Assembly (NCBI GenBank): GCA_963921795.1
Contig: OY997656.1
Span: 59,004,795-59,068,794, forward strand
DNA from: Nannobrachium achirus
Lineage: Eukaryota > Chordata > Actinopteri > Myctophiformes > Myctophidae
DNA: 64,000 nucleotides
Direction: 5' to 3'
Positions within the stretch are counted from its first letter, which is position 1, and every line of letters begins with the position of its first letter. The position numbers and the translations under genes were made by a program. This document shows positions 17,253 to 47,220 of the stretch, one piece after another. The notes under the pieces were generated by a model that did no database searches, had not been told where the DNA came from, and saw nothing but the letters and a program-made list of their open reading frames with translations.

Positions 17253-17262
17253 AGTGCAGTTG

Positions 17263-23873: not shown

Positions 23874-23957
23874 AGAGCGGTGAACCCAGCACCACCACCA
23901 GAGGCCACTGTTGGACCACCAGCTCCAAACCACTCCCACACTGATGATTCCCTTCAG
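23874..23957 (+). CDS. wdr44: wdr44 exon 2 (84 bp, possibly longer)
   Basis: The frame reads RAVNPAPPPEATVGPPAPNH then SHTDDSLQ, entering and leaving in phase 0. The acceptor is a very C-rich tract ending CTCCTGCAG. The donor at 23958 is GTAAAC. The last 30 bases are the first copy of a 33-bp array. If the final unit's donor (24123, GTCTGG) were used, the exon would end at 24122 and stay in frame. No named domain is present; this stretch is poorly conserved in WDR44. Assignment rests on phase compatibility with the exons on both sides and on position just before the IIDSIIEESQ exon. Confidence 0.62.
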
Positions 23958-24122
23958 GTAAACCACTCCCACACTGATGATTCCCTTCAGGTAAACCACT
24001 CCCACACTGATGATTCCCTTCAGGTAAACCACTCCCACACTGATGATTCCCTTCAGGTAAACCACTCCCACACTGATGATTCCCTTCAGGTAAACCACTC
24101 CCACACTGATGATTCCCTTCAG
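23928..24122 (+). repeat. 33-bp exon-edge minisatellite, 6 copies, each with a splice donor
   Basis: Six units of AACCACTCCCACACTGATGA plus TTCCCTTCAG; the first five are followed by GTA and the last by GTC. The period is 33, a multiple of three, and the frame (NHSHTDDSLQV) stays open across all copies. Five units carry the donor CAG/GTAAAC. The array therefore offers six alternative in-frame exon ends. Confidence 0.95.
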
Positions 24123-24337
24123 GTCTGGCTTTCATTGATTGAATATTTTATTAGACAGAAATGCAAGACAGCACAAGTTCAGTCAAAAACACTTTTGTCT
24201 AAAAGGATTGCACCAAAAAAGTCCTTGGGTCTTTATTTATTTGGGGGTCTCCTGTGAGAACGGGGAGGTTTTTTATATTAATATATTTATATTAATATAT
24301 ATTCATATATTTATATTCATATTATATTATTGTTCAG

Positions 24338-24554
24338 ATCATTGACAGCATCATCGAGGAGTCTCAGATGGGGGTGTTTTTATATTAATATATTTATATT
24401 AATATATTTATATTAATATATTTCAGATCATTGACAGTATCATCGAGGAGTCTCAGATGGGGGTGTTTTTATATTAATATATTTATATTAATATATTTAT
24501 ATTAATATATTTCAGATCATTGACAGCATCATCGAGGAGTCTCAGATGGGGGTG
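24338..24554 (+). repeat. Three partial upstream copies of the exon 3 start
   Basis: The first 39 bases of exon 3 (IIDSIIEESQMGV) with their TTCAG acceptor are repeated at 24338-24376, 24427-24465 and 24516-24554, before the true exon at 24591. Each is followed by AT-rich (TATATTAATA)n intron sequence. Use of any early copy would reach a TAA within four codons after GGGGTG. Confidence 0.93.
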
Positions 24555-24590
24555 TTTTTATATTAATATATTTATATTAATATATTTCAG

Positions 24591-24792
24591 ATCATTGACA
24601 GTATCATCGAGGAGTCTCAGATGGGGGTGCACCCAGACGGGGAGGTGGCTCAGCTGTTGGAACAGCTTCACGTGGACGTCAGGACGCCGGGGGCGGAGCC
24701 TAACCACCACCACCACCACAGCAAAGCTCCGCCCCTCCTCCCCATAGAGCCCGCCCCGCCGCCCACACCGCCCCCTAGTGGGGAACAACCTG
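24591..24792 (+). CDS. wdr44: wdr44 exon 3 (202 bp)
   Basis: Encodes IIDSIIEESQMGVHPDGEVA, then QLLEQLHVDVRTPGAEPN, a five-histidine run, and a proline-rich tail ending PPSGEQPG. The opening matches the KKIIESIIEESQ block near residue 60 of vertebrate WDR44. The rest is low-complexity and fast-evolving. The acceptor is ATATTTCAG and the donor CCTG/GTAGGG. The exon enters in phase 0 and leaves in phase 1. Of four tandem acceptors only this last one leads into the full reading frame. Confidence 0.87.
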
Positions 24793-25429
24793 GTAGGGAT
24801 CCTATAATCCACAAGAACCTTTTATACATCACTGGTTTCCAAACCTTTCTGGTCAAAAAAAAGTCTCCTCCACCAAAATTGAAACTGCTTTTTTCTCCTC
24901 ATGGAATAAGGCTGAAGTCCAAACATGGACCAAACACTCAGTAGTAACTACAGTAGTACTATAAGAACATAGACCCATTTTGGTATTATCTGAATTAAAT
25001 TAAATCACTACCCTATCTTTAAATTATCGATTAACCTAGAATTATTGAATGCTTTAACCAGTGAAAAATAACAGTATATCTGTTAATTTTATATAAGCTC
25101 ACAAGCTTGTAGATCTGCTATTTTTGAAAAAGCCGCGAAAATGTGTGCAAATCTTTGAATATATGCATTTTCAAAGCGAACGTTTGTAACTCAAATGTTG
25201 CTTCTGGGTGGTCCCTGGAACTAAATATTTTGAGATGGGGGTCCGTGGCCAAATACATATCATTTTGGGGGTCCTTCACATGAAAAGGTTTGAGAACCAC
25301 TGACATAGTAGTCTCTCAAGAACAGACTAACTGAGCTCCATTTAAGTGAAAAGGACCTTTTCTTTGACGATGGCTGGCCAGATTGCTGACATGGGGTTTT
25401 TCAAAAAACCTTAGAAGGATTCAAAAGAC

Positions 25430-26367
25430 TGTTACGGCCACCACCTTTACCTTTGGGGACCGCAACATTAAGTGAACAATGAGATCTGATTTAAAAGGGA
25501 ATATTTACATTTATTACAAATAGACACGAGCTCTTATTACAAACATTTCCCAATAAATACAATCACATGTCTTAACTCTATTACAGTAATTCTAAGGGTT
25601 CAGCTTGACTCAAAGTAACAAAATCAGAACTCAAAGGGTTGGTGACAGGACAGAGGGATTGAGCCTCTGCTGCTGTTAGGCTGACGGTCCTCTGCTGCAC
25701 CGAACACAAACTGAGCCTTATATAGAGGACTAGGGATGGTCACGCCCCAATCAGCAGTCATGATCATGGAACCAGCTAATCACAGACAGGCCACTTCCCC
25801 ACAGCTGTCAGGTATTTGGCAATCAGCAGCACCAACTCTCCACACCAGGGGTCTTCAACGTTTTCAGGCCGGGGACCCCCAAACTGATGGGGAGATGGAG
25901 CAGGGACCCCCTACCACCTCGTAGGGTGGGGGGGTCGGGGCTAAGACATATTTTTTATTTTAAGTTACAGCGAGCAGGGTGGGCCGTACCACTACCATTT
26001 CTAAACATACTACTTATTAACTGAGAACCAATGTCAATAATATCAACAATTTGTCAATTGCATAGTAATCATGTATTCAAGCTATTCAAAATGGATAGAA
26101 TCCTGATTTATTTGTTAACATAAATGTGAAACATTAAGAAAGAAAAAAAACTAAACTAAAAAAAAAAAAAAATTTTTTTTTTGAAATCTTTTTTTTTTTT
26201 TTTAAGCAATATTTTCGCGGACCCCCTGCAGTACCTCCGCGGACCCCCTAGGGGTCGCGGACCCCCTGTTGAAGACCCCTGCTCCACACCAACTCTCCAC
26301 CTCAGAAACAGGGAATATTAAAGGGCCAGGCAGCAGAAAATACAATAATGACCCTAGGGTCATAACA
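25430..26367 (-). repeat. LTR copy interrupted by a hAT element
   Basis: 938 bp in total, of which 444 are the hAT insertion plus its duplicated target. The remaining sequence aligns along its length with the LTR at 27812-28283, with scattered substitutions, so the insertion is not very recent. Confidence 0.88.
25846..26281. mobile_element. hAT element, TIR CAGGGGTCTTCAAC
   Basis: 436 bp. The ends CAGGGGTCTTCAACG and GTTGAAGACCCCTG are flanked by the perfect 8-bp duplication CTCCACAC (25838-25845, 26282-26289). The other LTR keeps the uninterrupted site CTCCACACAAACTCTCC at about 28197, a natural empty-site control. Confidence 0.93.
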
Positions 26368-27811
26368 CCAACCCCCTTAAAATCAAACATTTACCCCTTA
26401 CAAAAATGTTTGATTACACAATACAAAAAAATATATATATCTAACCCAAATACAAATATACACTAAGACGGCTCAAAGTGAGGCCCAGCCGACTTATACC
26501 TTTCCAAGTTGAAGTTGCACCCCTCCCACTTACTCTCTCAAAACACAACGCTGTAAACATGCTCAAATTCTTCACAAACACGAAACTCAAGTGGCATAAC
26601 AAACCACTATCTTAACAAATCACAAGTGGCATAACTAACCACCATATTAACAAAAAAGGAATTGGTTGTAGGTGGGTGGCCCAATTAATCACCATATTAA
26701 CAAAAAAATCCATCTTTGTAGGTGGGTGACCCAATTAACCACCATATTAACAACACCATTCAATTTTGTAGGTTGGTGGCCCAATTTACCACTTTCTCAA
26801 ACAAACCTGATTCAATTTGGTACGTGGGGATAAAAAACAATTTTATCCTTTCTCAATTTAGAATCAGTGACATAGGGAACACAAGTACACAACTAATTCA
26901 ATTTGGTACGTGGGGGTAAAAACCAATTTTACCCTTTCTCAATTTAGAAGAAGTTGACACAACCATGGAACCCAAACTAATTCAATTTGGTACGTGGGGG
27001 TAAAAACACTCACTATTTACCCTTTCTCAATTTAGAACTAGTAAGGAACCCAAAAAACATAGACACAAAAATTTGAGCATATTCCCCACACCTTAAAGTT
27101 TTAACAGAAAAACCAAACACAAGGTAACATTAACTTTAAGTGGGCAAAGGACTCTAAGCCCCAATTTACACTGTTACTGATGGACACAAGTAGGCTTCAA
27201 GGGGAGGCAAACAAACTTGGTTGGCAGGCTTTTAACATGACCAAAATTGCTTGCACAGACTTCACACCAATTTAGAATGAAACAGCAAATACGAATTGAT
27301 AATTTATCAGGTGGCACACACACAGTAGGCTTGAGGGTTCTACATCATGTGACATGTTACTGAGGGGCAGGTAGTAGGTACTCCCTGTCAGCTCAAACCC
27401 TAATGTGCACACACATCAACTCACAAGGCCAGCTTAGACTTTTAAGTCTCCCCCCAGCATGAAAGCAACCAACGGCCCTGTGGGTCAGGGAGGACGTGTC
27501 AGCCGTCGCCTCCACATCCTCACCTGAACCCACAGGTGCACTCACCGAGGTATACAGAATACAGTCACTAAGACACCCTCTCCAGAAAAGTATACACCCT
27601 CTACAGCAAGCCACTGCAACACACTCCCTTCCCTCTGACATGCTCACCAGCAACGCCTGTTAGAAGGGAGACATCAGATTTTAACAACCAGCCACCAAAC
27701 ACCCAATCCAAAATGTTCACAGGTGGGAGTCTGCACAAACTAAAATTACTAACATTATACAAACCTGCCAAACCAACCAACAAAACTAACTTTTTGACGA
27801 GCCCCCAATTA
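26368..27811 (-). repeat. LTR element interior without protein genes
   Basis: Non-coding interior. It contains short tandem-like blocks: GTAGGTGGGTGGCCCAATTA repeated about three times (26668-26790) and AATTCAATTTGGTACGTGGG repeated three times (26810-27005). Only short spurious frames are present, so it would depend on enzymes supplied in trans. Confidence 0.8.
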
Positions 27812-28283
27812 TGTTACGGCCACCACCTTTACCTTTGGGGACCGCAACATAAAGTGTACATGGAAACTGATTTAAAAGGGAATATATACATTTATTACAA
27901 GAAAAGAGCTCTTTTACAGAAATGTTGTAAAACACAGAATCACAGAACTTAACTAGAAATCAAAGTGTTTGACTGACTCAAAATGACCAAATCATAAAGT
28001 AAGGGTTTGTGAGAGGACAGAGGGATCGAGTCTCTGCTGCTGTTAGGCTGACGGTCCTCTGATTAAAGTCTGTTCAAGAATGAGCTTTATAGAGGACATG
28101 CGAGGGCCCACGCCCAAGTCAGCAGCCATCCAGCCAATCAGAGCCAGGCCAATTTCCCACCACAGCTGTCAGACGTTGGCAATCAGCACCACACCTCTCC
28201 ACACAAACTCTCCACCTCAGAAACAGGGACACAAAAAAGGCAGGGCAGCAGAAAATACAAATAATGACCCTAGGGTCATAACA
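27812..28283 (-). repeat. Second LTR (uninterrupted)
   Basis: 472 bp, TGTTACGGCC...TCATAACA. On the minus strand it carries a CTATAAAGC TATA-like box and an AATAAATG signal. It supplies the empty-site comparison for the hAT at 25846. Confidence 0.9.
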
Positions 28284-28475
28284 AAGACACTTATAGAATC
28301 TCGTCAAATTTCTAATTTTCACGACTTTTCAAAAATAGCAGATCTACAAGCGAGTGCCGCGCTGTGAGCTTGTATATCTGCTATTTTTCAATAGTTAAAG
28401 CATAAAATAATGATACACAATAATGTGTACCCGTTCTAAATGGATTAAATGGTTTCATTCCATGATCTTGTTCAG

Positions 28476-28699
28476 ACCCCGGGTCCGTGGACAGTCCAGA
28501 AGCAGAGACCAAGCAGCAGCAGAACAGAGCAGAGGAAGGTTTACCCGAACCCGAACCCGACCCCGACCCCTCGGACGCTGTGGGGGCGGGGCAACGGGGG
28601 GTCCAGCCCCCTGACATCACCAGCACCCTGGGGAGGCGGGGCCTGCCCGCCGAGGGGGACGAGGACCAGCAGGGACCCCCCGCCGACCTGCTGGACCAG
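28476..28699 (+). CDS. wdr44: wdr44 exon 4 (224 bp)
   Basis: Enters in phase 1 (two bases complete an Asp codon) and leaves in phase 0. The product is acidic and low complexity: PGSVDSPEAETKQQQNRAEE, an EPEPDPDPSD run, then GRRGLPAEGDEDQQG and PPADLLDQ. Vertebrate WDR44 has a similarly variable acidic stretch between IIEESQ and KPPRH; the length is comparable. The acceptor is CTTGTTCAG. The donor CAG/GTGGAT is weak and runs straight into (GATT)n. Identification is by phase and position rather than strong similarity. Confidence 0.72.
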
Positions 28700-28701
28700 G
28701 T

Positions 28702-28702
28702 G

Positions 28703-28732
<30 letters not shown>
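28702..28732. repeat. (GATT)n microsatellite on the exon 4 donor
   Basis: About seven GATT units start three bases inside the intron, so the +3 to +6 donor positions are part of the microsatellite. Confidence 0.9.
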
Positions 28733-28733
<1 letters not shown>

Positions 28734-28802
28734 AACTGATGCTTGAATCAGAAATGGGGCGTGTTCTCTCCTCTGCGGCCCCCAGTGTAGGTAGTCGAGG
28801 TC

Positions 28803-28980
28803 AGGGGTTTTCATAGTGGGTGACGGGGCACCCTGGGGTGCCGTGAAAATCATTTGATAATATTTGGATTTTATTTGGAGAGAAAAAAAAAAGGTTTCTA
28901 TCATTCCAAGATTTGGAGGACCCCCTGTAGTAACTCTGAGGACCCCCCAGGGGTCCCGGACCCCCTGTTAAAGACCTCTG
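28803..28980. mobile_element. Fragments of two hAT families
   Basis: 28803-28870 matches the CAGGGGTTTTCA end of the family at 19857. 28880-28980 matches the GGACCCCC...CCCTGTTAAAGACCTCTG end of the family at 25846. The two are directly abutted, a hybrid or nested remnant. Confidence 0.6.
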
Positions 28981-29493
28981 GCTTATAGGAAGGGAATAGC
29001 TTAAAAAGTCCTGGAATAAATTCCTTACCAAAAGATTTCTTCACCAATGTGTTTGTAAAGGTGTCTAGTAGTGGTGCGCGGGCCGACCCGGTGCCCCCAC
29101 CTGCCCGCCAACCCGCCAGGGAAGATGCACAAACAATTCAGCGCGTTTCGCTGATCAGGATTTCGCTTATATGTCTCTGTCATCCACACAAGTCCGTTTA
29201 TAGCTAAATGTGTCGGTTAAAGGGATATTCCACTTTCAAAAACACTTTTGGTCATTGCATGGTCTAATCAGGCTTGTATGAACACCCTGAACAGTTTTTA
29301 ATTTGCTTCATTCAGTATTTAGATATTTGATGTAAATGTTACCAGGCCCAACACGCCCAGGCCCTCTCCACATACACACCCATTGTAACTTCAAACTCCA
29401 TTTTAACCATGATAGATTCATTAAAAACACACATTATCTTTTCTGGTGACTCATTTTACGTGAGCAGACCGTGTTTTTTCAATAACCTTTTTC

Positions 29494-29557
29494 TTTTATT
29501 AAGTGTGCCTGCCATGCAATGCAATGGCAAAACACTTATTGTAATCCGCCATACTTA
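29494..29557. repeat. AAGTGTGCCTGCC-type dispersed repeat start
   Basis: AAGTGTGCCTGCCATGCAAT and CACTTATTGTAATCCGCC recur at 32619-32670. The matching end, GCAGGCACACTTAAAATTTC followed by TTTTCTTTTCTAG, recurs at 32105-32151 and 33675-33723. This copy keeps an intact TATTAAGTG, the empty site for the TTAA insertion at 32162. Confidence 0.6.
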
Positions 29558-30469
29558 AAGGGGAAGACCACCCATTTTCAATATTGAACTATGTCATTAA
29601 TATACCTTAGAGGAGTTGTGTGGAAGTAGAAAAAAAGTTCCCCCCCTTCTGTGTTACCTAGAACTGGAGGATTGGTTTTGGGGTTTGTATTGTAAATTAC
29701 AACTTGATGACATCACACATTGTAATTTACAATACAAACCCCAAAATCAATTCCCCAGTTCTAGGCAACACAGAAGGGGGGGAACGTTTTTTCTATTTCC
29801 ACACAACTCCTCTAAGGTATATTAACACGTTGCAAGCCGCGGCAGAACCCTCTGAACAGAGGTAGCGCCGAAGAAATAAGCCATTTATTTACAAACATGT
29901 TTTAAAAAAACAAAGCCCACATGATAACAACACGTACTGGAGTGCTCGACACAGCGTACATATTCATCCTGCAGAGGTCGGCGATCTTACTTTGGCGAGG
30001 CGGAGGGGAGATCAATTCCATTCGTTTACGTGCGGCGAAGCAGGGAAAGGAGCGATAGAGAAGCGGCGCCCGAACGTGATTGAAACCGCGATCCACGAAC
30101 AGAGACAAAGACCAGCCATCTTGTTTGAGGTTCTTGCTGAGTTTCAACACTGGGGAGAGGATGAGGCTCCTCCTGGCCAGCCATCCATCCAGAATGTGAG
30201 TCAACGGCGTGGCCTGCTGGATATTAGGAGTATCACACCCAGCACCAGAAAATGACTGTCAGAGCATATTAACCCTTTCAGATCGCTCCAAAAAGACACA
30301 GAGAAGAATTTCCGATGTTTTTTTTTTTTTTATTATAATTTATATCAAAAGTCCGGTAATAGACGGCGTGGCTGATGGGACCCAGTAGGAAGTCCGAGGG
30401 AGTACGGCCAGGCTTAGAAGGTGTTAATGACATAGTTCAATATTGAAAATGGGTGGTCTTCCCCTTTAA
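29558..30469. mobile_element. Inverted-repeat element GGGGAAGACCACCC
   Basis: AAAGGGGAAGACCACCCATT at the left and AATGGGTGGTCTTCCCCTTT at the right are inverted copies that continue through CAATATTGAACTATGTC. Inside, 29608-29826 is itself a palindrome with arms of about 95 bases (AACACAGAAGGGGGGGAAC type) around ACTTGATGACATCACAC. Confidence 0.7.
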
Positions 30470-30503
30470 GTAAGTCAGTAAGTAAGTAAGTAATGTTCTT
30501 GCA

Positions 30504-30850
30504 AATTTCGGCATGTAATAACTGCCGCACAATTTACGCCACCGCCGCAATATATACATCAAAACGTGCGGCTCGGCCGGGAATGGGGTGCTATTACTTT
30601 TCTTTCCGATCCGCGTTACCATTGCGACGTAATTCGCAAAAAACGACGCCAAAAAACCCCATTCACTTAGAATGGGGGAAATTTCGGCACGTAATAACTG
30701 CCGCACGATTTACGCCACCCCCGCAATATATACATCAAAATGTGCGGCTCGGCCGGGAATGGTGTGCTATTACTTTTCTTTCCGATCCGCGATACGATTG
30801 CGATGTAATTCGCAAAAAACAACGCCCAAAAACCCCATTGACTTAGAATG
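30504..30850. repeat. Two direct copies of a unit of about 170 bp
   Basis: AATTTCGGCACGTAATAACTG, GTGCGGCTCGGCCGGGAATG and AACCCCATTGACTTAGAATG type blocks occur twice in succession. A third, shorter copy is at 32690-32775. No gene recognised. Confidence 0.75.
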
Positions 30851-31089
30851 GGGGACTCCGAAAAAAACCCAGAAACTTTGGCGCCACATAACTCTTGCCA
30901 TACTTTTGCCTAGCAACGTGATTTAAACTTTAAAATGCACACACAACTTTGGTCTTTTTCCAGCCAATAGGGATGAGCTGTAATTGATTAAGCCCCGCCC
31001 CCTCTATAACAGGAAGTGCCCTTTGCCAAACAGGAAGTGCCTCTACATCTCATGAACCGTTTATCGTACAGAGTTGTGGCTGGTGTCAT

Positions 31090-31395
31090 ACATTTTTTTT
31101 TTCTCAAAAAAATTTTTTTTCTCAATTTTTTTTTTCTCAAAATTTTTTTTTTCTCAAAAAAAAATAATTTCCTCAAAAATTTTTTTTTCTCTCAATTTTT
31201 TTTTTCTCAAAAATTTTTTTTTCTCTAATTTCTTTTTTTCTCAAAAAACTTTTTTTCTCTCAAAACATTTTTTTTCTCAAAAAAATGTTTTTTTCTCAAA
31301 AAAAAAGTTTTTTTTTCTCAAAAAAAATCTTTTTCTCAAAACATTTTTTTTTCTCAATTTTTTTTTTCTCAAAAAAATTTTTTTCTCTCAAAAAT
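31090..31395. repeat. T-rich (TTTTTTTCTCAAAAA)n low-complexity array
   Basis: About 16 irregular copies of a T-run, CTC and an A-run. The poly-Phe open frame that spans it is an artefact of composition. Confidence 0.9.
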
Positions 31396-31399
31396 CTCT

Positions 31400-31992
31400 A
31401 TTTCGCCAAACAGGAAGTGCCCCTCACCAAACAGGAAGTGACCCTTTACCTCGTGAACCGTTTGTCGTACAGACGCGTAGATGGCATCAAATGACTTTAT
31501 TAAGTCCTTAACCTTAATTGGGGCCTATTTCGCCAAACAGGAAGTGCCCCTCACCAAACAGGAAGTGACCCTTGATCTCGTGAACCATTTGTCGTACAGA
31601 TGCGCGGGTTGCGTCAAATGACAAGAATAAGAGTCCTTAACCTTAATTGGGGCCTATTTCGCCAAACAGGAAGTGCCCCTTACCAAACAGGAAGTGACCC
31701 TTTATCTCGTGAACCGTTTGTCGTGCAGACGCGCGGGTGGTGTGAAATGACTTGATTAAGAGTCCTTAACCTTAATTGGGGCCTATTTTGCCAAACAGGA
31801 AGTGCCCCTCACCAAACAGGAAGTCACCCTATATCTCATGAATTGTTTGTCGTACAGACGCGTGGGTGTCATCAAATGACTTGATTAAGAGTCATTAACC
31901 TTAATTGGGGCCTATTTCGCCAAACAGGAAGTGCCCCTCACCAAACAGGAAGTGACCCTTTATCTCGTGATCTGTTTGTCGTACAGACATGT
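31400..31992. repeat. Tandem repeat of about 128 bp, 5 copies
   Basis: Units start near 31402, 31530, 31660, 31788 and 31918 with TTTCGCCAAACAGGAAGTGC, then ACCAAACAGGAAGTGACCC, TCGTGAACCGTTTGTCGTAC and CCTTAACCTTAATTGGGGCC. Each holds two CAGGAAGTG motifs. Confidence 0.88.
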
Positions 31993-32161
31993 GGGTGGTG
32001 TCATATGAAGAACCATAATGTTAAAGCTTATGCAAAAAATGCTAATGTTAAAAAATGTAACGCTAATGCTAACACCAACCGCTACACAAGGTTGCACAGA
32101 CTTAGCGAGCTGCAGGCACACTTAAAATTTCTTAGAAATTTTCTTTTCTAGTTATTATTAA

Positions 32162-32616
32162 CTCATCTGCTGCCATTTAACAATACCTTCGTACTCTAAT
32201 TATGCCAAACTGTCTCCATAGACTTCCATGTAATTCATAGTGCACGGATCATGCACACCCATGCCTAGATAATGCACCATGTGTGTCCACATTGCTCACA
32301 GCTTTCAAACAAAAAAATCCGAATGGAAATCCGTTCAGGCATTCATGAGATAGCAGCCATTATGTTTTCCTAAAATGTAAACAAAGATGGCTGCCATGTT
32401 TGAAAGATGGGGTTGCTATGGGGGTTAAACATGCAATTTCGCGATCGCTATCATGCCTACTAAATGTTTTGGGGTCAAAAAAAAAATTTTGAAAAATTTT
32501 TTTTTTGAAAAAAATGTTTTTTTTTGTTTTTTTTCCAAAAATTCTCGGGTTCCTCGGGCGTGGCAGGGTGGTACATCGCGTAATTCTGGGGTTCCTCGTT
32601 TTTGGCAGCAAATGAG
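32162..32616. mobile_element. TTAA-target MITE, TIR CTCATCTGCTGCCA
   Basis: TTAA (32158-32161 and 32617-32620) flanks CTCATCTGCTGCCATTTAAC at one end and TTTGGCAGCAAATGAG at the other. This fits a piggyBac-like non-autonomous element. A second copy is at 37501-37844 and an empty site at about 29492. Confidence 0.85.
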
Positions 32617-36051: not shown

Positions 36052-36076
36052 TTAACCCTTGCCCCTCCCCTTCCAG

Positions 36077-36308
36077 GTCCCCCTCCTGTCAGACCCGTCC
36101 TGTGGTGACCCAGACTCCTCTGGGGGTCCCACCAAGCCCCCCCGCCACTTCACTGTGGAGCCGGACATCGTGGCCAGCACCAAGAAGACTCCGCCCACGC
36201 GCCCGCCCCCTCCCGGGGGGGTCCCCCCCCCACGGCCCCCCCTCCCCTCCTGGCGCACCCTGCCCTCCAAGAAGTCACATGACTCTCTGAGACTGAGCGG
36301 ACTGGACG
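36077..36308 (+). CDS. wdr44: wdr44 exon 5, proline-rich (232 bp)
   Basis: Reads VPLLSDPSCGDPDSSGGPTK, PPRHFTVEPDIVASTKKTPP, TRPPPPGGVPPPRPPLPSWR and SKKSHDSLRLSGLD. KPPRHFTVEPDIVASTKK is nearly identical to the vertebrate WDR44 block KPPRHLTPEPDIVASTKK, and the PPPRPP cluster is the known SH3-ligand region used to contact GRAF-type proteins. Phase 0 in, phase 1 out. The acceptor is CCCCTTCCAG and the donor GACG/GTACGT. A TTAA transposon ends 21 bases upstream, so the whole pyrimidine tract lies between the TTAA and the exon. An (ACGC)n repeat starts eight bases past the exon. Confidence 0.95.
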
Positions 36309-36314
36309 GTACGT

Positions 36315-38715: not shown

Positions 38716-39165
38716 CCCTGCACAACCTGAATTAATTTCTACTGGCCAAAGAAAATTAAAAAAAAATCAGATGGTGTTGTAGCAGTCCTAATAAAAAAAT
38801 TATAATGTTTTTGTAAGGTTTTATATCCATAAATCATAAATCATGCTCTAATTAGCATTTTGGGGATATTTTTCACAATATTAACATATGCACATTTACT
38901 CATGTTTTAGTGAGGAATAGCTTCAGTTAAAAAATTAGATGTTGTTCGTCCAGACGCTGGAATTTCAACTTCTCTGGGAGGTGTGAATGTCAGTCTCTGT
39001 GGGGGGTATTTATATGCAAATATCGTGGCCAATGGCATTGTAATACTAAACAATAGGATTTAATGGTGACGTTAATGTGAAAAAAGAACAGGAAAACTAA
39101 TTATAACATTTTTTAAAAAATGATTTAAAAAATGTTGCCAAAAAGCAACGCTGGTCCTTGCAGGG
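38716..39165. mobile_element. TTAA-target element CCCTGCACAACC
   Basis: TTAA at 38712-38715 and 39166-39169. The ends are CCCTGCACAACC and GGTCCTTGCAGGG. The interior contains GACGCTGGAATTTCAACTTC and a Myb-like simple AT interior. A second copy is at 45998-46448. Confidence 0.75.
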
Positions 39166-39368
39166 TTAATTAATCTATAAAAATTGCAAACTGTAACAGG
39201 CGCTTCTCGATCGCGTCAGATCCCGACCCGCAGCTGACGCTGATTTGGTCCCTGTAACCTGAATAGAGAATCACTGCTTCTTGTCCAGTTTCTTTTTCTT
39301 TTCGGTGTGACCTTTCGCTCCCCTGCATTTCAACGATAACATGATGTTGTACTTCTGCCTCCGACCAG

Positions 39369-39502
39369 ACGGCGGAGTAGAGGGCCTGGAGCCGTCGGGC
39401 CTGCTGTCCCCCACCAGCACGGTGCGGAGCCTCACCAAGGAGCTGCAGCACTCGCTGGACCTCGCTAGCGCCACCAGCGGGGACAAGGTGGTCACTGCAC
39501 AG
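39369..39502 (+). CDS. wdr44: wdr44 exon 6 (134 bp)
   Basis: Reads DGGVEGLEPSGLLSPTSTVR, SLTKELQHSLDLASATSGDK, VVTAQ. SLDLASATSGDK(I/V)VTAQ is a signature of vertebrate WDR44 and marks the start of the conserved Rab11-binding part. Phase 1 in (AC completes Asp), phase 0 out. The acceptor is TGCCTCCGACCAG and the donor CAG/GTCAGT. Confidence 0.95.
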
Positions 39503-39977
39503 GTCAGTCTACCATAGACCTACCTGCTAGTTATGCCTGACTATACAGATCCATGTAAAACAATTAGAATATTGTGTAAAAGTACATTTTCTTGGAACTT
39601 TCATATATTCAAGATACATTGCACATGCAGTGAATTATTCCAAACTTTTTTTTGTTAAAATTTAGATTTTTTTTATGTCATACAGCTCATGAATATCAAA
39701 CGTCCATATTTCAAAATATTACAATATTACACAAGACCACTCAAAAGAAGGATTTATAATAGAGAAATGTCAACCTTCTGAAGTCAAAGTCCAGTGGGAA
39801 GTTTCCGATGTCAGTTATGATTTGGGGTGCTAGGGCATCTGCAAATCTTTTTTACGCATTATTCAATTTTTTTTAGATGGATCTGTAGTTGGGGGTAGGC
39901 TTTTTTTATGCACGGCACCCCTGAATCACACTGTTACTATACTATAGCTCCCTAGATTCACGTATGTGTCCCTCCAG

Positions 39978-40076
39978 GAGAGCGAGGGAGACGACCAGGC
40001 GTCGTCGGACGGTGGAGCAGACACGCCTGGATCTCAGCGACCTCGCTCCAACTCTGGTAGAGAGCTGACTGATGAG
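39978..40076 (+). CDS. wdr44: wdr44 exon 7 (99 bp)
   Basis: Encodes ESEGDDQASSDGGADTPGS and QRPRSNSGRELTDE, exactly 33 codons, phase 0 at both ends. QRPRSNSGRELTDE is identical to the human WDR44 block and contains an RPRSNS serine in a basophilic-kinase context. The acceptor is GTCCCTCCAG and the donor GAG/GTGAGG. Confidence 0.96.
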
Positions 40077-40124
40077 GTGAGGAGCTTTCACACACAGCCC
40101 TGTTCAGAAAGGATTGTTAACATA

Positions 40125-41782
40125 CAGGGTTCCCGCGGATCCTTAAAAAGTCTTAAATTGTCTTAACCCATTTAGTGCTCCAGACATGAACGGGTTAAAT
40201 GTCCAGCGTGCCTCTCGCAGGGCTCCATACGCGGCCAGTATCTTATTTTGAAGGCCAGAAGTCCATTGCGTAAACACTTCCGGGTTGACGTCATGATGTC
40301 ATTCAACCGAAGCAGTCGTCACCCCATGCCGTGTCTAAAATGGCCGGTCGTTGCCTTTGTTATTATGTTATTGTAGCGAGAATCTAATGCCATCCTTGGC
40401 TTTAAAAGTGTTGTTTGGAGAAAATGGACATTAAAGATGAGATTTCCCGTCGGCCTCCATGTTATGGGATTACTATTTTGTGCACGTGGATCCGTGATGA
40501 TGATGAATCGGCGAGGCCGATCGTGCCAGGACCTTCCAACGGACTATAGGGTAGGAGAACTGGCTCTCTATATACAGTATTTTACGCGAGTATACTCGGG
40601 ATCGGCACTCTAAATACTTGAGTATTTTTCACGAGTATACTCGGGATCGGCTAGAAATTAGTTAAATAAAACATGGGGAATTTAAGGTCTTAAAAAGTCT
40701 TGAATTCGACCAAATCTGACAGTAGGTATTACATTTGAAGATGATGTTTTTAAGTCTCATTGGTAAATGAAAGCCATAAACTTTTGTGCGTATTCATTTG
40801 ATTAGTTTATTTGATCTTATTAATATTAGATAACGACAGACCGCTAACAGCAGTCAGTGGGAAGAGGAGGCTGTTTGTTATTCTTGGCTCCGCCCGTTTT
40901 GTCAGTACTGTGGTGCCAGTGGTGGTGCGGGTAGATGGTGTAGATGGAGATTTTTTTTTTTTTTTTTACAAATCAAGCGCTCCTTTACTCTTGCCTGACG
41001 TCAACTGCACAGTGATTTGATAACGGCAGCGCTCAGTCAGACAGGCTGCACAGACTGAGAGAACACAAGGCGTTGTGTTGTAGAGTGGACTTTTCTTCTT
41101 TTTTTCGTTATATTAACTCTTTGCCAGCCCGAAATAGAATGGTTGTTGGTAGATTAGCCGTGAAATTTCTATTATTATATTATGATCTGAACCGCATTCA
41201 TTTTACCAGACATCCAGCGCTATATCACGTGGTCTTCATCCCCCATTATCATACCGCGATCCCCCGTTGTTTTACTCACCCCAGTTCCCAGTGAAATTCT
41301 CAATCTGCATTGGCTTAGAGTGGGAGATTCGGCTGACGCATCATGTCCCCGTGCGTTTCGCGTGCGCGATCCGTTCACGTAAATGTCCCCTCAAATAATC
41401 CACGTGTGACTCAAGAGTAGAACTGAAAAGTATCGCTAGCATAGCCCCCAGCACGGCTGCTGTAGAAGCACTCGTGTACAGACAGCAAACGGATGGGTGG
41501 AAGGTGCCTTGGAGAAGGAGTGGACCTGACGTCACTTCTGCTTCATGTCAGACCAGCCATGAGCTATCGATGCACGAGTGGTGACTAGGGAAGGTTAGAC
41601 GATCGCCGATTTTCGGATGAAAATCATTTATTTCGGTTTTAATGACACAGTACGGGAAAAGACAAGCGGCTGAGACCCCCCCCCCTCAGAAGTCCGATAT
41701 AGTACGGTTTTAATATTAAGGGGCTCCCCGTGGCTTGGAATGTGTTAAGACGTTTTACTTTCAAAATGGTGCAGGAACCCTG
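40125..41782. mobile_element. Probable hAT-like composite CAGGGTTCC
   Basis: Begins CAGGGTTCCCGCGGATCC and ends GCAGGAACCCTG, near-inverted termini. ACATA occurs on both sides but no clear 8-bp duplication was found. The interior includes TTAA-bounded pieces (40163 onward, 41115 onward) and TTAAAAAGTCTTAAA motifs typical of dispersed fish repeats. No enzyme frame. Confidence 0.45.
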
Positions 41783-41871
41783 ACATAGGAAGATAACACC
41801 ATCCCAATGGGATCCACCAGCCACTGTACTGTCCTGACTCTGCCAGGTGGTGGCGTACTGAGTAGGGATGG

Positions 41872-41952
41872 GACGCAGATCTACAAGCTCACAACGCGTC
41901 GCGATGTGACGCGTTACTTGTGAGCTTGTAGATTGGCTGTTTTTTATCGGCG
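41872..41952. repeat. Core hairpin
   Basis: AGATCTACAAGCTCACAACG on the left and a right arm with a TAC insertion. The centre is CGTCGCGATGTGACGCG. It sits next to a TAGGGATGGGACG terminus. Confidence 0.75.
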
Positions 41953-42355
41953 GCCTCGCTCTCGCCCGTAGCTGCTGCTGATTGGTTGGAAGTGGGCCCT
42001 GTGCGGTGTAGCGCCGATCTCTGATTGGTCCCAGATGGAAGTATGAGGAACTCAATAGAATACGCCACCATCTGAGTCAGGTTGGTCCTTGTGGGTTGAA
42101 TGTACACACCAGTTCCTTTTTTATTATGTTTAACTCTGTATGGATATTGACCAGTAAATGCTCTGTGCTTCATAAAGCACTGGTCAGGCAAAGAGGAAAC
42201 TCGTTGTGTTCTTTGGCTCCAAGTATCACTGTGATAGAGGAAGCACTTCTTATTCACATAGGCCTTGTGACCACAGTTCCTCAAATCTGTATACTTCAAC
42301 AGCCCTTCTTTAGACATCAAATAAAGCCAGAAACATTGACTCACGTTCATTCACA

Positions 42356-42372
42356 CGCACACGCACGCACAC

Positions 42373-42464
<92 letters not shown>

Positions 42465-42539
42465 ACACTCTTCCTATTATCTCACGATGCACTCGTGATT
42501 ATGAAGTTGTGTTGAAAATACACAGAATTACTGGGAAAA

Positions 42540-42580
<41 letters not shown>
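42356..42580. repeat. (CA)n and (AT)n microsatellites
   Basis: A (CA)n run of about 85 bases at 42375-42460, and a poly-A followed by (TA)15 at 42538-42580. From 42581 to 42889 no feature was recognised. Confidence 0.95.
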
Positions 42581-42582
<2 letters not shown>

Positions 42583-42889
42583 TGATAAGCTCTAACTGTA
42601 AACTGTAAATCACAATCAATTTCATGAGGAATACATCTGCAGAGGTGGAAGGAAGCGACACTCCAAAATAAAGGTTTTAAGACACTGCAGTCGACCATTC
42701 TTCTTTAATCCGCCTCGTTTTGGTGTTAGAATCAGCTTTAAAGAACTGGGTGATGAGGTAGACTGACTCAGGTACAATCTGCATAATCCCTGTTAAGCCT
42801 TCCATCAAAGGTTTTACTAACTCAGAAGTTAGTGATCTGTAACTTAACTGCTGTGCTGCCTGCCTGAAAAATCTTCATATATTTTCTAA

Positions 42890-43163
42890 CATTTTCAAAA
42901 AATAGTGGAAATAGCAGACCTACAAGCTCACAATGCGCCGCGATGCATTGAGCTTGTAGAGCAACTATCAATGTTCTTTTTTAAGTATAACGTTGTCAAA
43001 TATGTCAGTAATTCCTTTGTATATTTAGGTTATGTGTCGTATGTGCAACTTCAAAGCCTACAAGCCAAACAGAAATGTAATTGTCAACGACAAAAACACA
43101 ATTAAATTGTTAATCACAATTATTTGAGTGACGATTAGTCGTCATGTAAAATGTCATAATGGT
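42890..43163. mobile_element. TAGGGCTGTCAC-family MITE, truncated
   Basis: The body from ATAGTGGAAATAGCAG to ATGTAAAATGTCATAATGG matches 21271-21670 but both termini are lost. The hairpin (42902-42968) has an eroded right arm. The uninterrupted TTTTTTAAGTATAACG at 42975-42990 is an empty-site control for the TTAA insertion at 47727. Confidence 0.75.
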
Positions 43164-43170
43164 GACATGT

Positions 43171-43687
43171 GGTCCTCTCCAGGAGATCCTAGCAGGGTGA
43201 ATAAACAGTGTTTAATGTGTGGTCCTCTACAGGAGCAGGGTGAATAAACAGTGTTTAATGTGTGGTCCTCTACAGGAGCAGGGTGAATAAACAGTGTTTA
43301 ATGTGTGGTCCTCTACAGGAGCAGGGTGAATAAACAGTGTTTAATGTGTGGTCCTCTACAGGAGATCCTGGCAGGGTGAATAAACAGTGTTTAATGTGTG
43401 GTCCTCTACAGGAGCAGGGTGAATAAACAGTGTTTAATGTGTGGTTCTCTACAGGAGCAGGGTGAATAAACAGTGTTAATGTATGGTCCTCTACAGGAGA
43501 TCCTAGCAGGGTGAATAAACAGTGTTAATGTATGGTCCTCTACAGGAGATCCTAGCAGGGTGAATAAACAGTGTTTAATGTATGGTCCTCTCCAGGAGAT
43601 CCTGGCCAGTGTGATGATCATTATTATTATTAACTCTACAGGAGATCCTGGCCAGTGTGATGAACATTATTATTATTAACTCTACAG
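43171..43687 (+). repeat. Tandem array built from the exon 8 acceptor, 12 copies
   Basis: Ten units of 42-50 bases (GGTCCTCTACAGGAG...GGGTGAATAAACAGTG) start at about 43171, 43221, 43264, 43307, 43350, 43400, 43443, 43485, 43534 and 43584. Two units of about 46 bases carry more of the exon (GAGATCCTGGCCAGTGTGAT at 43596 and 43642). Most units keep CTCTACAG/GAG, an intact acceptor plus the first exon bases. Confidence 0.93.
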
Positions 43688-43824
43688 GAGATCCTGGCCA
43701 GTGTGATGATCAAGAACCTGGACACAGGAGAGGAGATCCCTCTGATCCAGGCTGAGGAGAAGCTGCCGTCTGGGATCAACCCTTTGACCCTGCACATCAT
43801 GAGGAGGACCAAGGAGTACATCAC
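43688..43824 (+). CDS. wdr44: wdr44 exon 8 (137 bp)
   Basis: Reads EILASVMIKNLDTGEEIPL, IQAEEKLPSGINPLTLHIMR and RTKEYIT. EILASVMIKNLDTGEEIPL and GINPLTLHIMRRTKEY are essentially identical to other vertebrate WDR44 proteins, in the conserved segment before the WD40 domain. Phase 0 in; it ends AC/GTACGT in phase 2. Both edges have been tandemly copied into the adjacent introns (43171-43687 and 43900-44910). Only this copy is complete. Confidence 0.97.
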
Positions 43825-43879
43825 GTACGTTCTACCTTCTATAGTATCTACCATACCTTCTACCATACCACCTACCATA

Positions 43880-44910
43880 CCTACCATACACACACCTAAC
43901 CCTAACCCTGCACATCATGAGGAGGACCAAGGAGTACATCACGTAGGTTATACCACCACTATGTTCTACCACCACTATGTTCTACCTTCTATCTACCATA
44001 CCTTCTACCATACCTTCTACCATACCTTCTACCATACCCACCATACACACACCTAACCCTAACCCTGCACATCATGAGGAGGACCAAGGAGTACATCACG
44101 TAGGTTCTACCACCACTATGTTCTACCACCACTATGTTCTACCTTCTATCTACCATACCTTCTACCATACCTTCTACCATACCTTCTACCATACCACCTA
44201 CCATACCTACCATACACACACCTAACCCTAACCCTGCACATCATGAGGAGGACCAAGGAGTACATCACGTAGGTTCTACCACCACTATGTTCTACCACCA
44301 CTATGTTCTACCTTCTATCTACCATACCTTCTACCATACCTTCTACCATACCACCTACCATACCTTCTACCATACCTACCATACACACACCTAACCCTAA
44401 CCCTGCACATCATGAGGAGAACCAAGGAGTACATCACGTACGTTCTACCTTCTACCTACCATACCACCTACCATACCTTCTACCATACCTACCATACACT
44501 CACCTAACCCTAACCCTTCACATCATGAGGAGGATCAAGGAATACATCACGTACGTTATACCTTCTACCATAGCTTCTACCATACCTACCATACCTTCTA
44601 CCATACCTTCTACCATACCTACCATACCTACCATACCTACCATACCTTCTACCATACCTTCTACCATACCTACCATACCTACCATACCTTCTATCATACA
44701 CACACCTAACCCTAACCCTGCACATCATGAGGAGGACCAAGGAATACATCACGTACGTTCTACCACCACTATGTTCTACCTTCTATCTACCATACCTTCT
44801 ACCATACCTTCTACCATACCTACCATACACACACCTAACCCTAACCCTGCACATCATGAGGAGGACCAAGGAGTACATCACGTAGGTTCTACCTTCTATC
44901 TACCATACCC
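43880..44910 (+). repeat. Tandem array built from the exon 8 donor, 7 extra copies
   Basis: The last 35 or so bases of exon 8 (CTGCACATCATGAGGAGGAC to ACATCAC) and the donor are repeated at about 43907, 44064, 44233, 44402, 44515, 44717 and 44846, with GTAGGTT, GTACGTT or GTACGTTATAC following. Units of about 157-169 bases include (CTACCATAC)n filler. In the copies the exon's AACCCTTTGACCCTG has become CCTAACCCTAACCCTG, a double telomere-like motif. Confidence 0.93.
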
Positions 44911-44914
44911 AGAA

Positions 44915-45300
44915 AACGCCAACAAAAGCTGTTTTTTTTGATGACTCATCACTTTTCATCACTAAACCATCATTTTCTGGGGCCATTTTTAGCCCAAGGA
45001 ATGTTTTTTTTTTGTGCAAAACAAATGCTTGCAATGGATTCAGCATCATGACAAACCCCTAGTTAGACCCCTCACATCCTACTTAAAGCAGATTTTTTTC
45101 TGGGTATTTTCCTCCTGTATAGAAAGTCGATGGGAGCCCAACTTGATTTGGCCACTGTGGGTATTTGCAGTGAGCAGATCATGGTAGATTTTTTTTATCC
45201 TGGCTAGTAGACCTAATTTCCTAAAAGAATCAGTTGAAAAACTAAATAATAAAATGTTGTCCAACCTGAGTGTATTTTTTCCCTAGATTTACTAGACTAG
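44915..45300. mobile_element. Fragment of the palindromic element (28985-35195 family)
   Basis: GCAAAACAAATGCTTGCAAT, GGATTCAGCATCATGACAAA and CTACTTAAAGCAGATTT correspond to the right arm near 34840-34920. Only one arm is clear. From 45301 to 45540 no feature was recognised. Confidence 0.6.
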
Positions 45301-45548
45301 ATCTGGTCAGGTGACCTGCCATACTGAGTGGCAGATTGAACCAGAGTCTCCAGTTGTGTTGCCACCCTGGTTCACAAACAGTGCAAAAAGATCCTTTCTC
45401 TGCTTGTTAGATAAATGATCTTACTGGTATGTGTTCCAGTTTATTAAAGAGCTGGAGAGACATCACAGTCATCACAATGATTCCTATCAGAACACACAGC
45501 TGTTTAGCACAGTTTGAATGGGAAAACAGAAGACAAGCCAGTCAGAAT

Positions 45549-45680
45549 AACTGTTGGAATGGACGTGTATGTGTTTATAAATGTTAAACTAACTGTTAGA
45601 ATGGACATGTATGACGTGTATGTGTTTATAAATGTTAAACTAACTGTTAGAATGGACATGTATGTGTTTATAAATGTCAT
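45549..45680. repeat. Three tandem units of about 42 bp before exon 9
   Basis: AACTGTTAGAATGGACATGT and GTGTTTATAAATGTTAAACT occur three times, the middle unit with a 10-base insertion. The last unit ends about 20 bases before the acceptor, but unlike the arrays at exons 8 and 10 it contains no exon sequence. Confidence 0.85.
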
Positions 45681-45701
45681 GTTGTGTTCTCCTCCTCTCA
45701 G

Positions 45702-45785
45702 GAACGACGCAGCTCAGTCAGATGACGATGACAAGGCGGCGGCTCCTCTGACGGACACGGACGGAGGGAAACTCAAGCAGAAAAC
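45702..45785 (+). CDS. wdr44: wdr44 exon 9 (84 bp)
   Basis: Reads (T)NDAAQSDDDDKAAAPLTDTD then GGKLKQKT. NDAAQSDDEEK and PTDTDGGRLKQKT are the corresponding vertebrate WDR44 blocks; the acidic serine is a likely CK2-type site. Phase 2 in and out. The acceptor is CTCCTCTCAG and the donor AC/GTAAGC. Confidence 0.96.
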
Positions 45786-45820
45786 GTAAGCCTTGCATTC
45801 TGCTGTCCAGTAGAGCTGTT

Positions 45821-45992
45821 TGGTTAGAACTGACTGAAAATAACTTTGTACTTCAAGTTTAAAATGATACTAAATATTTCTTTAAGTGTCCATAAATTCC
45901 AAATATTATCAAATTATCTTGCGGCACCCCTGGACTGCCGTCACGGCACCCCAGGGTGCCCCCCCCGTCACCCACTTTGAAAACCCCTGTTC
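45821..45992. mobile_element. hAT fragment (CAGGGGTTTTCAAA family)
   Basis: The GACTGAAAATAACTTTGTAC to TTTGAAAACCCCTG part of the element at 22107-22574 is present; the left half is missing. It is directly followed by the TTAA-target element copy. Confidence 0.7.
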
Positions 45993-45997
45993 TACAG

Positions 45998-46448
45998 AAC
46001 CCTGCAAGACCCGAATTAATTTCTACTGGCCAAAAAAAAAAATATATGTTTTTGTAAGATTTTATAGCCATAAATCATAAATCATGCTCTAATTTGCATT
46101 TTGGGGATGTTTTTCACAATAATAACATAATGTTCTAGACATTCTAATGATCACGAAATAAAAAAAATCAGGCATTTTACTTATGTTTTAGTGAGGAATA
46201 GCTTCAGTTAAAAGTGAGATGTTGTTCGTCCAGACGCTGGAATTTCAACTTCTCTGGGAGGTGTGAATGTCAGTCTCTGTGGGTGGGGGGTATTTATATG
46301 CAAATATCGTGGCCAATGGCATTGTAATACTAAACAATAGGATTTAATGGTGATGTTAATGTGACAAAAGAACAGGAAAACAAATTATAACATTTTCTAA
46401 AAAATGATTATTATTTTTTGCCAAAAAGCAACGCCAGGCCTTGCGGGG
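45998..46448. mobile_element. TTAA-target element, copy of 38716-39165
   Basis: AACCCTGCAAGACC at the left and GGCCTTGCGGGG before TTAA (46449-46452) at the right. The left TTAA is altered to ACAG. The interior GACGCTGGAATTTCAACTTC block is conserved with the first copy. Confidence 0.72.
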
Positions 46449-46538
46449 TTAATTGTTCTGTATACTGCACCATAACTATTGTGCTGACATCAGGCGACTG
46501 GATGTCAATAGCAGCCTTACGTTTGTCTTGACCCACAG

Positions 46539-47113
46539 GACTCAGTTTAAGAAGTTCCTTTTCAATAGCGGTCTTATGTTTGACCCAACAGGACGCAGTT
46601 AGAACGTGTACACATTATAGTGTATCATTATTTTATGCTTTAACTATTGAAAAATAGCAGATATACGAGCTTGTAGATCTGCTATTTTTGAAAAATCGTG
46701 AAAATTAGATTTTTTACACGATTCTATAAGTGTCTTTTGAATCATTCTAAGATTTTTTGAAAAACCTATGTGTCTATGTCAGCAATCTGGCCAGCCATCG
46801 TCAAAGAAAAGGTCCTTTTCACTTCAACTGGAGCTCAGTTAGTCTGTTCTTGAGAGACTACTATGTCAGTGGTTCTCAAACCTTTTCATGTGAAGGACCC
46901 CCAAAATGATATGTATTTGGCCACGGACCCCCATCTCAAAATATCTAGTTCCAGGGACCACCCAGAAGCAAAATTTTAGTTACAAACTTTCGCTTTGAAA
47001 ATACATATATTCAAAGATTTGCACACATTTTCAATAGTGGTCTTATGTTTGACCCAACAGGACACAGTTTAAGAAGTTCCTTTTCAACAGTGGTCTTATG
47101 TTTGACTCAACAG
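46539..47113 (+). repeat. 53-bp array from the exon 10 acceptor, split by a TTAA-family MITE
   Basis: Partial copies of the exon 10 start (CAG/GACNCAGTTTAAGAAGTTCC, or truncated) begin at 46539, 46592 and 47061, with the true exon at 47114. Spacing is exactly 53 on both sides of a MITE that occupies about 46605-47030. The transposon therefore landed in a pre-existing array. Confidence 0.9.
46605..47030. mobile_element. TTAA-family palindromic MITE
   Basis: GAACGTGTACACATTATAGTG at the left, a collapsed hairpin at 46650-46695, then the GTCAGTGGTTCTCAAACC and GACCCCCATCTCAAAATATC blocks. The right end fades into GCACACATTTTC. The ends are less clear than in other copies. Confidence 0.7.
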
Positions 47114-47220
47114 GACACAGTTTAAGAAGTTCCTGGGGAAGTCGGTGAAGAGGGCCAAACACCTGGCGGAGGAGTACGGAGAGAAGGCCGTCAACAAGGT
47201 GAAGAGCGTCCGCGATGAAG
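47114..47220 (+). CDS. wdr44: wdr44 exon 10 (107 bp)
   Basis: Reads TQFKKFLGKSVKRAKHLAEE and YGEKAVNKVKSVRDE. Vertebrate WDR44 has TQLKKFLGKSVKRAKHLAEEYGERAVNKVKSVRDE, so identity is very high. This basic helical segment immediately precedes the WD40 domain region. Phase 2 in, phase 1 out. The acceptor is GACTCAACAG and the donor GAAG/GTGAGG. Confidence 0.97.

Follow-up and report, generated by a model that had tools for sequence, protein, structure and literature searches.

Tandem arrays across five splice junctions of wdr44 in Nannobrachium achirus: probable ordinary minisatellite growth outward from intact exons

Tandem repeats at exon–intron boundaries have already been published (De Grassi and Ciccarelli, 2009; PMC2812944), as have tandem arrays of dual-specific splice sites, in human UBC and VCX3A (Duan et al., 2024; PMC10809524); the latter study also argues that a repeat expansion does less harm when it includes splice sites. 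According to exon definition, splicing prefers the sites nearest to each other across the exon (PMC9225289), a preference that is modest in the published data (60% for strength-matched donors, with the upstream bias of acceptors only reduced). Here we describe a wdr44 gene with tandem arrays crossing five splice junctions, in a 64,000-nucleotide window (the whole stretch of DNA analysed; contig OY997656.1, positions 59,004,795 to 59,068,794) of the N. achirus assembly GCA_963921795.1. No report of the same phenomenon in a fish was found in the literature searched.

The top-scoring wdr44 protein is 72% identical across 91% of the query. A search of solved structures matched 69 chains; the 60 of these that were listed are all of WD-repeat type by the region matched, and none of the 60 is named WDR44. 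The protein end of exon 2, DDSL[QL], occurs once each in P0007, P0015 and P0025. The five multiplied junctions claimed in an earlier note on this DNA, at exons 2, 3, 8 (both edges) and 10, are all present in the sequence (Table 1), although the 13 copies given there for the exon 8 acceptor reduce to 12 copies of CAG|GAG once a short unit is set aside. The simple repeat claimed beside the exon 4 donor consists of GATT units and lies where it was said to; its counterpart at the exon 5 donor is a visible short ACGC run that falls below the TRF threshold. The 42-bp repeat reported before exon 9 was likewise found, as a 42/51-bp array that stops short of the exon. TRF arrays span four of the five junctions, and the exon 8 donor is covered by copies of the junction word.

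Table 1. Exons and tandem arrays of wdr44 (window coordinates; exons numbered as in the earlier note).
Feature	Position	Strand	Details	Basis
Exon 2, shortest form	23874..23957	+		sequence reading, frame test
Exon 2 donor array	23927..24124	+	33 bp x 6; CAG|GT per unit, spacing exactly 33 bp (23958-24123); six donors in frame	
Exon 3 acceptor array	24286..24629	+	89/75-bp units; 4 copies at 24338, 24427, 24516, 24591 (spacing 89, 89, 75)	
Exon 3	24591..24792	+	starts at innermost acceptor	frame test
Exon 4	28476..28699	+	GATT repeat 28703-28732 begins 3 bases past donor	frame test
Exon 5	36077..36308	+		frame test
Exon 6	39369..39502	+		frame test
Exon 7	39978..40076	+		frame test
Exon 8 acceptor array	43168..43712	+	42-50-bp units; 12 copies of CAG|GAG (43183-43688)	
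Exon 8	43688..43824	+	innermost acceptor to innermost donor	only open pair among 96
Exon 8 donor array	43782..44899	+	8 copies of CATCAC|GTA (43825-44882); spacing 113-202 bp, inner 12-bp repeats	
42/51-bp array	45548..45677	+	ends 24 bp short of exon 9, non-straddling	
Exon 9	45702..45785	+		frame test
Exon 10 acceptor copies, outer pair	46539..46611	+	46539, 46592	
Exon 10 acceptor array	47028..47134	+	53 bp x 2 (47061, 47114)	
Exon 10	47114..47220	+		frame test
Exon 11	54759..54910	+	edges without copies	
Exon 12, first WD40 part	59829..59968	+	only its acceptor entered the edge counts	frame test

Except at exon 2, the reading frame stays open for just the innermost copy of each array (1 of 4 copies at exon 3, 1 of 12 at the exon 8 acceptor, 1 of 8 at the exon 8 donor and 1 of 4 at exon 10), every outer copy running into a stop, and a single one of the 96 combinations of exon 8 acceptor and donor is open. 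The innermost splice sites are not consistently the stronger ones: by approximate weight matrices, the innermost copy scores 6.3 at the exon 8 acceptor, where the outer ten reach 2.3–3.5; 3.0 at the exon 3 acceptor, where other copies reach up to 4.6; and 0.9 at the exon 8 donor, where other copies reach up to 1.7.

The exon 2 array is unlike the other four. Its 33-bp unit is a multiple of 3, AG|GT is present in each of the six copies, and all six donors are in frame; AG|GT is absent at the junction from the arrays of exon 3, exon 8 (both edges) and exon 10.

Edges were also scored in 20 myosin stretches (the only sample not picked via its arrays), in an UNC13-like gene reached via a near-edge array matching the exon 2 array, and in two kinesin stretches (L034 and L036); a third kinesin stretch (L035, three matches) was excluded as pseudogene-like, being without introns and having poor sites. 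The exon 2 array also has a match on C5, considered as a wdr44 paralogue; this match lies in a different gene, with MUN-domain exons. For the myosins, 426 of 566 possible edges (283 exons) were kept, those dropped lying at a stretch end or lacking a splice-like site within 24 bases; one of the sites retained (L023) is a GT 7 bases away from the probable donor, and in two kept cases of a multiplied edge the nearest copy is 309 and 428 bp away and may not be tandem. Copies were found at 13 of the 426 myosin edges, about half the adjacent-intron rate, with no excess at or near edges: the rates are 3.1% at edges, 4.7% within 100 bp, 6.2% at all non-exon positions and 0.7% in exon interiors. A previous count on myosins, based on Pfam rows, found copies at 3 of 102 edges, compared with 5.4% of other positions. 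Neither do the myosin arrays favour edges: 7 of 66 straddle one, where random placement predicts 9.4 (P 0.88), and a further 10 lie within 50 bp without straddling, where 11.8 are predicted (P 0.78); myosin repeat coverage is 2.3% within 50 bp of an edge, 3.2–4.6% from 50 to 1600 bp and 1.0% beyond. None of the 14 kinesin edges is multiplied.

When the myosins, wdr44 and the UNC13-like gene are pooled (467 edges, 426 of them from myosins and partly shared between paralogs), 21 edges are multiplied against 36.1 expected from positions +50 to +600 bp at the same loci, a ratio of 0.54 (bootstrap 0.32–0.84; 0.49 for repeats only). In wdr44 and the UNC13-like gene this ratio is biased towards a reading without targeting, because their straddling arrays feed that control; wdr44 by itself, with 5 of 21 edges multiplied and copies at 41 of 167 control positions, gives a ratio of about 1. 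With all non-exon positions as control, our own arithmetic gives an expectation of 33.8 edges. The pooled profile runs from 1/467 at 40 bp inside exons through 21/467 at the edges to 39/464 at +50 bp, and it has no peak at the junction, the highest of the nearest positions being those at +50 to +75 bp in all three sets. At every one of the 21 multiplied edges, 10–45 exon bases are shared with a copy. Selection that spares only duplications leaving the exon intact, one of the explanations put forward in the earlier note, fits both the exon side of this profile and the reading-frame test.

We consider it probable that the wdr44 arrays reflect ordinary minisatellite growth, the genome being rich in repeats, and that such growth is tolerated where it extends away from an exon left intact. 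The arrays would be ordinary minisatellites that start a few tens of bases inside the exon. Their head-to-tail units of 33, 42–50, 53 and 75/89 bp lie within the range of about 10–100 bp usual for minisatellites, which the 113–202 bp of the exon 8 donor array (with its inner 12-bp repeats) exceed, and arrays of similar kind are present in unrelated genes. Tandem duplications may arise at many sites along genes, expanding through slippage or unequal exchange; based on the observed distribution of copies, those disturbing exon interiors would be purged by selection and intronic ones would persist, as would edge-crossing arrays in which the copied exon piece is short and the innermost copy keeps the exon whole. 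Since the additional acceptors are upstream of an intact exon and the additional donors are downstream of it, closest-site pairing would give a normal mRNA, and outward-running arrays are probably tolerated because the innermost sites pair. At exon 2, where all donors are in frame, variable use would add only 11 residues per unit.

It is rather unlikely, in our judgement, that duplication instead has a preference for exon edges or their vicinity, at least among repeat-rich genes with long introns, whether through splice-site sequence, near-exon composition, R-loops or spliceosome-linked breaks. In wdr44 and the UNC13-like gene repeats are indeed denser close to exons, but both were reached through edge arrays, the former by the earlier note and the latter by array match. 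Repeat coverage in these genes declines from 24–29% within 100 bp of edges to 10–15% (wdr44) and 5–7% (UNC13-like) beyond 800 bp, and the repeat sequence within 400 bp of wdr44 exons is mostly part of straddling arrays. Arrays that straddle an edge or lie within 50 bp of one number 6 of 18 in wdr44 against 2.53 (P 0.029), and merged wdr44 arrays that straddle one number 5 of 18 against 1.82 at random placement (P 0.023; the exon 8 donor array was extended by hand to include its first copy), P values that are flattering because the gene was chosen for its edge pattern. The corresponding counts for the UNC13-like gene are 6 of 10 against 2.58 (P 0.015), including a two-copy 43-bp repeat ending at another acceptor that was scored as within 50 bp and not straddling, and 3 of 10 against 2.02 (P 0.32).

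Against such a preference, edge-by-edge shifts give P 0.235 for wdr44, with junction copies at 5 of 21 edges against 3.26, and P 0.754 for the UNC13-like gene (three multiplied edges in both an 18-edge first pass and a partly hand-corrected 20-edge second pass). TRF arrays straddle 4 of 21 wdr44 edges against 3.2 in circular shifts in which some edges were misplaced by one base (P 0.40). The wdr44 arrays as such exceed chance, and the evidence on their position is mixed. Of the edge targeting suspected in the earlier note, what holds is the nearness of arrays to exons in these two array-selected genes; the myosins show no excess whether edges, arrays or distances are considered, and the kinesin edges have no copies. 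That there is a class of repeat-rich, long-intron genes in which duplication starts preferentially at or beside edges and builds arrays of dozens of splice sites among which splicing would have to choose, with the myosins in another class, appears slightly more doubtful still.

We regard as improbable that the arrays are kept for a function, either as decoy sites that tune output via unproductive splicing or, at exon 2, as a dual-specific AG|GT array that yields a variable 11-residue repeat in the manner of polyubiquitin. The stops met by the outer copies of four arrays would suit the former and the in-frame AG|GT units of exon 2 the latter; dual-specific sites have been described in tandem-repeat genes (PMC10809524), and three junctions with donor copies each recur in three or four myosin paralogs. 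However, the other four wdr44 arrays have no AG|GT at the junction, and in the myosins copies are no commoner at edges than in intron. Assembly or sequencing artefacts are very improbable, for although the units within the exon 2 array and within the 51-bp array are perfectly identical, copies have diverged in four of the five junction arrays, the two pairs of exon 10 copies are ~470 bp apart, paralogs have related arrays at homologous junctions, and other genes hold similar arrays. A dispersed-repeat origin of the exon 8 acceptor array was rejected, as the array matched the genome at its own place only.

The arrays constitute natural competition experiments in splice-site choice, above all at exon 8, where 12 acceptors and 8 donors are near-identical and one combination is open. 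The extent of shared exon sequence in the 21 cases is an initial measure of the depth to which growing repeats enter exons. Gene models and short-read splicing maps will probably be misled by multiplied junctions of this kind, and an edge preference in repeat-rich genes, if true, would point to an undescribed mutational bias.

Among described systems, the boundary repeats of human segmental-duplication genes are similar by position: these minisatellites (~30-bp mean unit) cross exon–intron boundaries and are able to alter splicing (PMC2812944), and the wdr44 arrays likewise overlap exon, splice site and intron. The human repeats differ from one paralog to another and have transcript support, whereas the wdr44 arrays are seen in genomic sequence, mostly have more copies and affect several edges of one gene. 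The exon 2 array resembles those of UBC and VCX3A in having AG|GT in each unit, a multiple-of-3 unit and every copy in frame (PMC10809524), although its unit is not a domain; the other four arrays are unlike them, in that AG|GT is missing from their junctions and reading on from an outer copy ends in a stop. Intron gain via tandemly duplicated proto-splice sites (PMC2891723) also duplicates a splice-like site, with splicing masking the extra copy; unlike that process, in which an intron is gained, wdr44 multiplies an existing intron edge. The competing donors and acceptors around one exon in PMC9225289, the source of the innermost-pairing rule, are like those of wdr44, although that study concerns two sites and wdr44 presents up to 12 near-identical competing copies.

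The gene crossed by these arrays, in a genome of 1.66 Gb (564 contigs), is wdr44, as identified from its open frame and best-scoring relatives. Exons 2–11 (numbered as in the earlier note; the position of exon 1 was not found) join into a single open frame of 485 residues, and the top-scoring matches come from teleost entries for WD repeat-containing protein 44 (72% identity and 91% query coverage in the first; nine aligned). Arrays do cross all five splice junctions that the earlier note described as multiplied in tandem, and the splice consensus said to be kept by most copies (GT or AG) is present in 34/34 listed copies; the description was accurate except that the exon 8 acceptor has 12 copies rather than 13.

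Repeat arrays and associated features (bare coordinates are window positions; C5, C9 and C22 are other contigs of the genome under study, G000; L numbers are genomic stretches read outside the window)
Feature	Location	Copies	Unit	Remark
wdr44 exon 2 donor array		6	33 bp	
wdr44 exon 3 acceptor array		4	89 and 75 bp	
wdr44 exon 8 acceptor array		12	42–50 bp	
wdr44 exon 8 donor array		8	113–202 bp	
wdr44 exon 10 acceptor array		4		two pairs ~470 bp apart
UNC13-like acceptor array	exon C5:7637319-7637396, in L006	21	48–59 bp	
UNC13-like donor array		16 further	37 bp	
UNC13-like donor array, second		5 further	66 bp	
Related myosin donor-junction copies	L023, L025, L026, L029, L031	varying		same three exons of several paralogs
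Array	22719-23577	16.8, perfect	51 bp	~300 bp upstream of exon 2; 296 residues open in one frame; probably non-coding
Satellite-like array, 12.9 kb	4405-17255	~286	46 bp	97% alike
Array	60648-64000	~76	44 bp	reaches window end; probably within wdr44, because just downstream of exon 12
Short dispersed inverted repeats around AGCAGATCTACAAGCTC...GAGCTTGTAGATCTGCT	46640-46700, 54100-54170, 28340-28390, others			also in some myosin introns; one in the stretch splitting the two exon 10 acceptor pairs
Open frames, both strands	52337-52831			related peptides (AQNKLIRV..LP.QTHLT); resemble transposon reading-frame remnants
Intronless kinesin motor domains	C9:28768035-28771826; C22:20659519-20663364	three in tandem at each		suggests retrocopies, duplicated afterwards

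Each alternative splice-site copy was read through wdr44 exons 2–11. The frame stays open with one of the four acceptors at exon 3, one of the four at exon 10 and, at exon 8, one of 12 acceptors, one of eight donors and one of 96 pairs; each time this is the innermost copy, i.e., that closest to the intact exon. At exon 2 all six donors remain in open frame, each adding 11 residues; the exon end DDSL[QL] is present once in three of the nine aligned relatives (P0007, P0015 and P0025), the other six lacking the region or differing there. Transcriptome work reports that exon definition favours the sites closest across the exon, with a moderate preference (PMC9225289), which would pick the innermost splice-site pair of the wdr44 arrays. 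Because this preference is moderate and the innermost sites are not consistently stronger than the outer copies, some unproductive splicing at the arrays is likely, judging from sequence.

TRF arrays make up 16% of the wdr44 span (23874-59968). Edge by edge, they straddle 4/21 edges vs 3.2 in circular shifts (P 0.40; P 0.29 for periods of at least 20), and copies of the junction word (24 bases, 12 each from exon and intron; up to 4 mismatches allowed, no more than 1.5 kb away) occur at 5/21 edges vs 3.26 expected (P 0.235). Array by array, 5/18 merged arrays straddle an edge vs 1.82 under random placement (P 0.023), and 6/18 straddle or lie within 50 bp of one vs 2.53 (P 0.029), P values that are flattering because the gene was picked for its edge-array pattern. 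The exon 2 array weakly matches a locus on C5 that belongs to a gene, here called UNC13-like, some of whose exons match the MUN domain (PF06292). Its multiplied edges (those with a nearby junction copy) number 3/20 vs 4.04 in shifts (P 0.754); 3/10 arrays straddle an edge vs 2.02 (P 0.32) and three more lie within 50 bp vs 0.56 (P 0.014), giving 6/10 vs 2.58 (P 0.015), one of the six being the array through which the locus was reached. The exon with 21 acceptor copies is apparently one base short relative to the family sequence, which may reflect an indel or assembly error.

Twenty 10-kb stretches around myosin-head matches, not picked via arrays, yielded 283 exons delimited by conservation between paralogs, with 426 edges bearing acceptable sites. 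Copies lie near 13 of these edges (3.1%); the corresponding share is 0.7% in exon interiors, 4.7% for positions within 100 bp and 6.2% for non-exon positions as a whole. Of 66 arrays, 7 straddle an edge where random placement gives 9.4 (P 0.88), and a further 10 come within 50 bp, vs 11.8 (P 0.78). Among kinesin exons, 0/14 edges were multiplied. At three myosin donor junctions, related copies (1 to 5 further) recur in three or four paralogs each, and some junction arrays therefore appear to have outlasted gene duplications, or to have spread via gene conversion. Donors account for 16 of the 21 multiplied edges in the three sets; since 12 of these donors come from four myosin junctions, the excess is weak evidence for donor preference.

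Pooled over wdr44, the UNC13-like gene and the myosins (sums our own), junction-word copies rise from 1/467 at 40 bp and 10/467 at 25 bp inside the exon to 21/467 at the edge, then 23/423 at +25 bp, 39/464 at +50 bp, 37/412 at +75 bp, 27/341 at +100 bp, 22/306 at +200 bp, 32/333 at +400 bp and 27/330 at +600 bp; in none of the three sets was the junction itself the peak. The 21 multiplied edges compare with 36.1 expected from an own-locus control (+50 to +600 bp) that is inflated by straddling arrays in wdr44 and the UNC13-like gene (ratio 0.54; bootstrap over 22 loci 0.32–0.84), or with 33.8, by our arithmetic, from all non-exon positions; TRF arrays of period at least 10 give 14 vs 26.4 under the own-locus control. 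By gene, wdr44 shows no difference (5/21 edges vs 41/167 control positions) and the UNC13-like gene has 3/20 vs 56/158, the remainder being myosins. Repeat coverage in these two genes is 28–29% at 50–100 bp and, beyond 800 bp, 10–15% (wdr44) and 5–7% (UNC13-like); the corresponding myosin values are 2.3% up to 50 bp, 3.2–4.6% between 50 and 1600 bp, and 1.0% farther out. Repeats therefore sit near exons in two repeat-rich genes, and not in the unselected myosins.

The targeting of exon edges raised in the earlier note thus has no support in the unselected myosins; in the two selected genes the edge-by-edge tests show no clear excess and the array-by-array tests a near-edge one. Each of the 21 multiplied edges has 10–45 exon bases in common with a copy. 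On the best reading, growth of such repeats is tolerated where it reaches an exon edge, and selection on the exon shapes it. The wdr44 arrays offer natural splice-site competition, exon 8 foremost, and at exon 2 a possible variable 11-residue repeat; they also pose a clear question answerable genome-wide.

Parallels are described for human duplicated genes, in which tandem repeats at exon-intron boundaries alter splicing (PMC2812944), and for UBC, in which tandem AG|GT sites serve as both donor and acceptor, such expansions being argued to be less harmful because they are removable by splicing (PMC10809524). New introns can arise via tandem duplication of proto-splice sites (PMC2891723), and a 2025 survey reports direct repeats close to intron borders (PMC11782384). 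The wdr44 arrays belong with these boundary repeats, standing out by their copy number and by the five edges affected in one gene.
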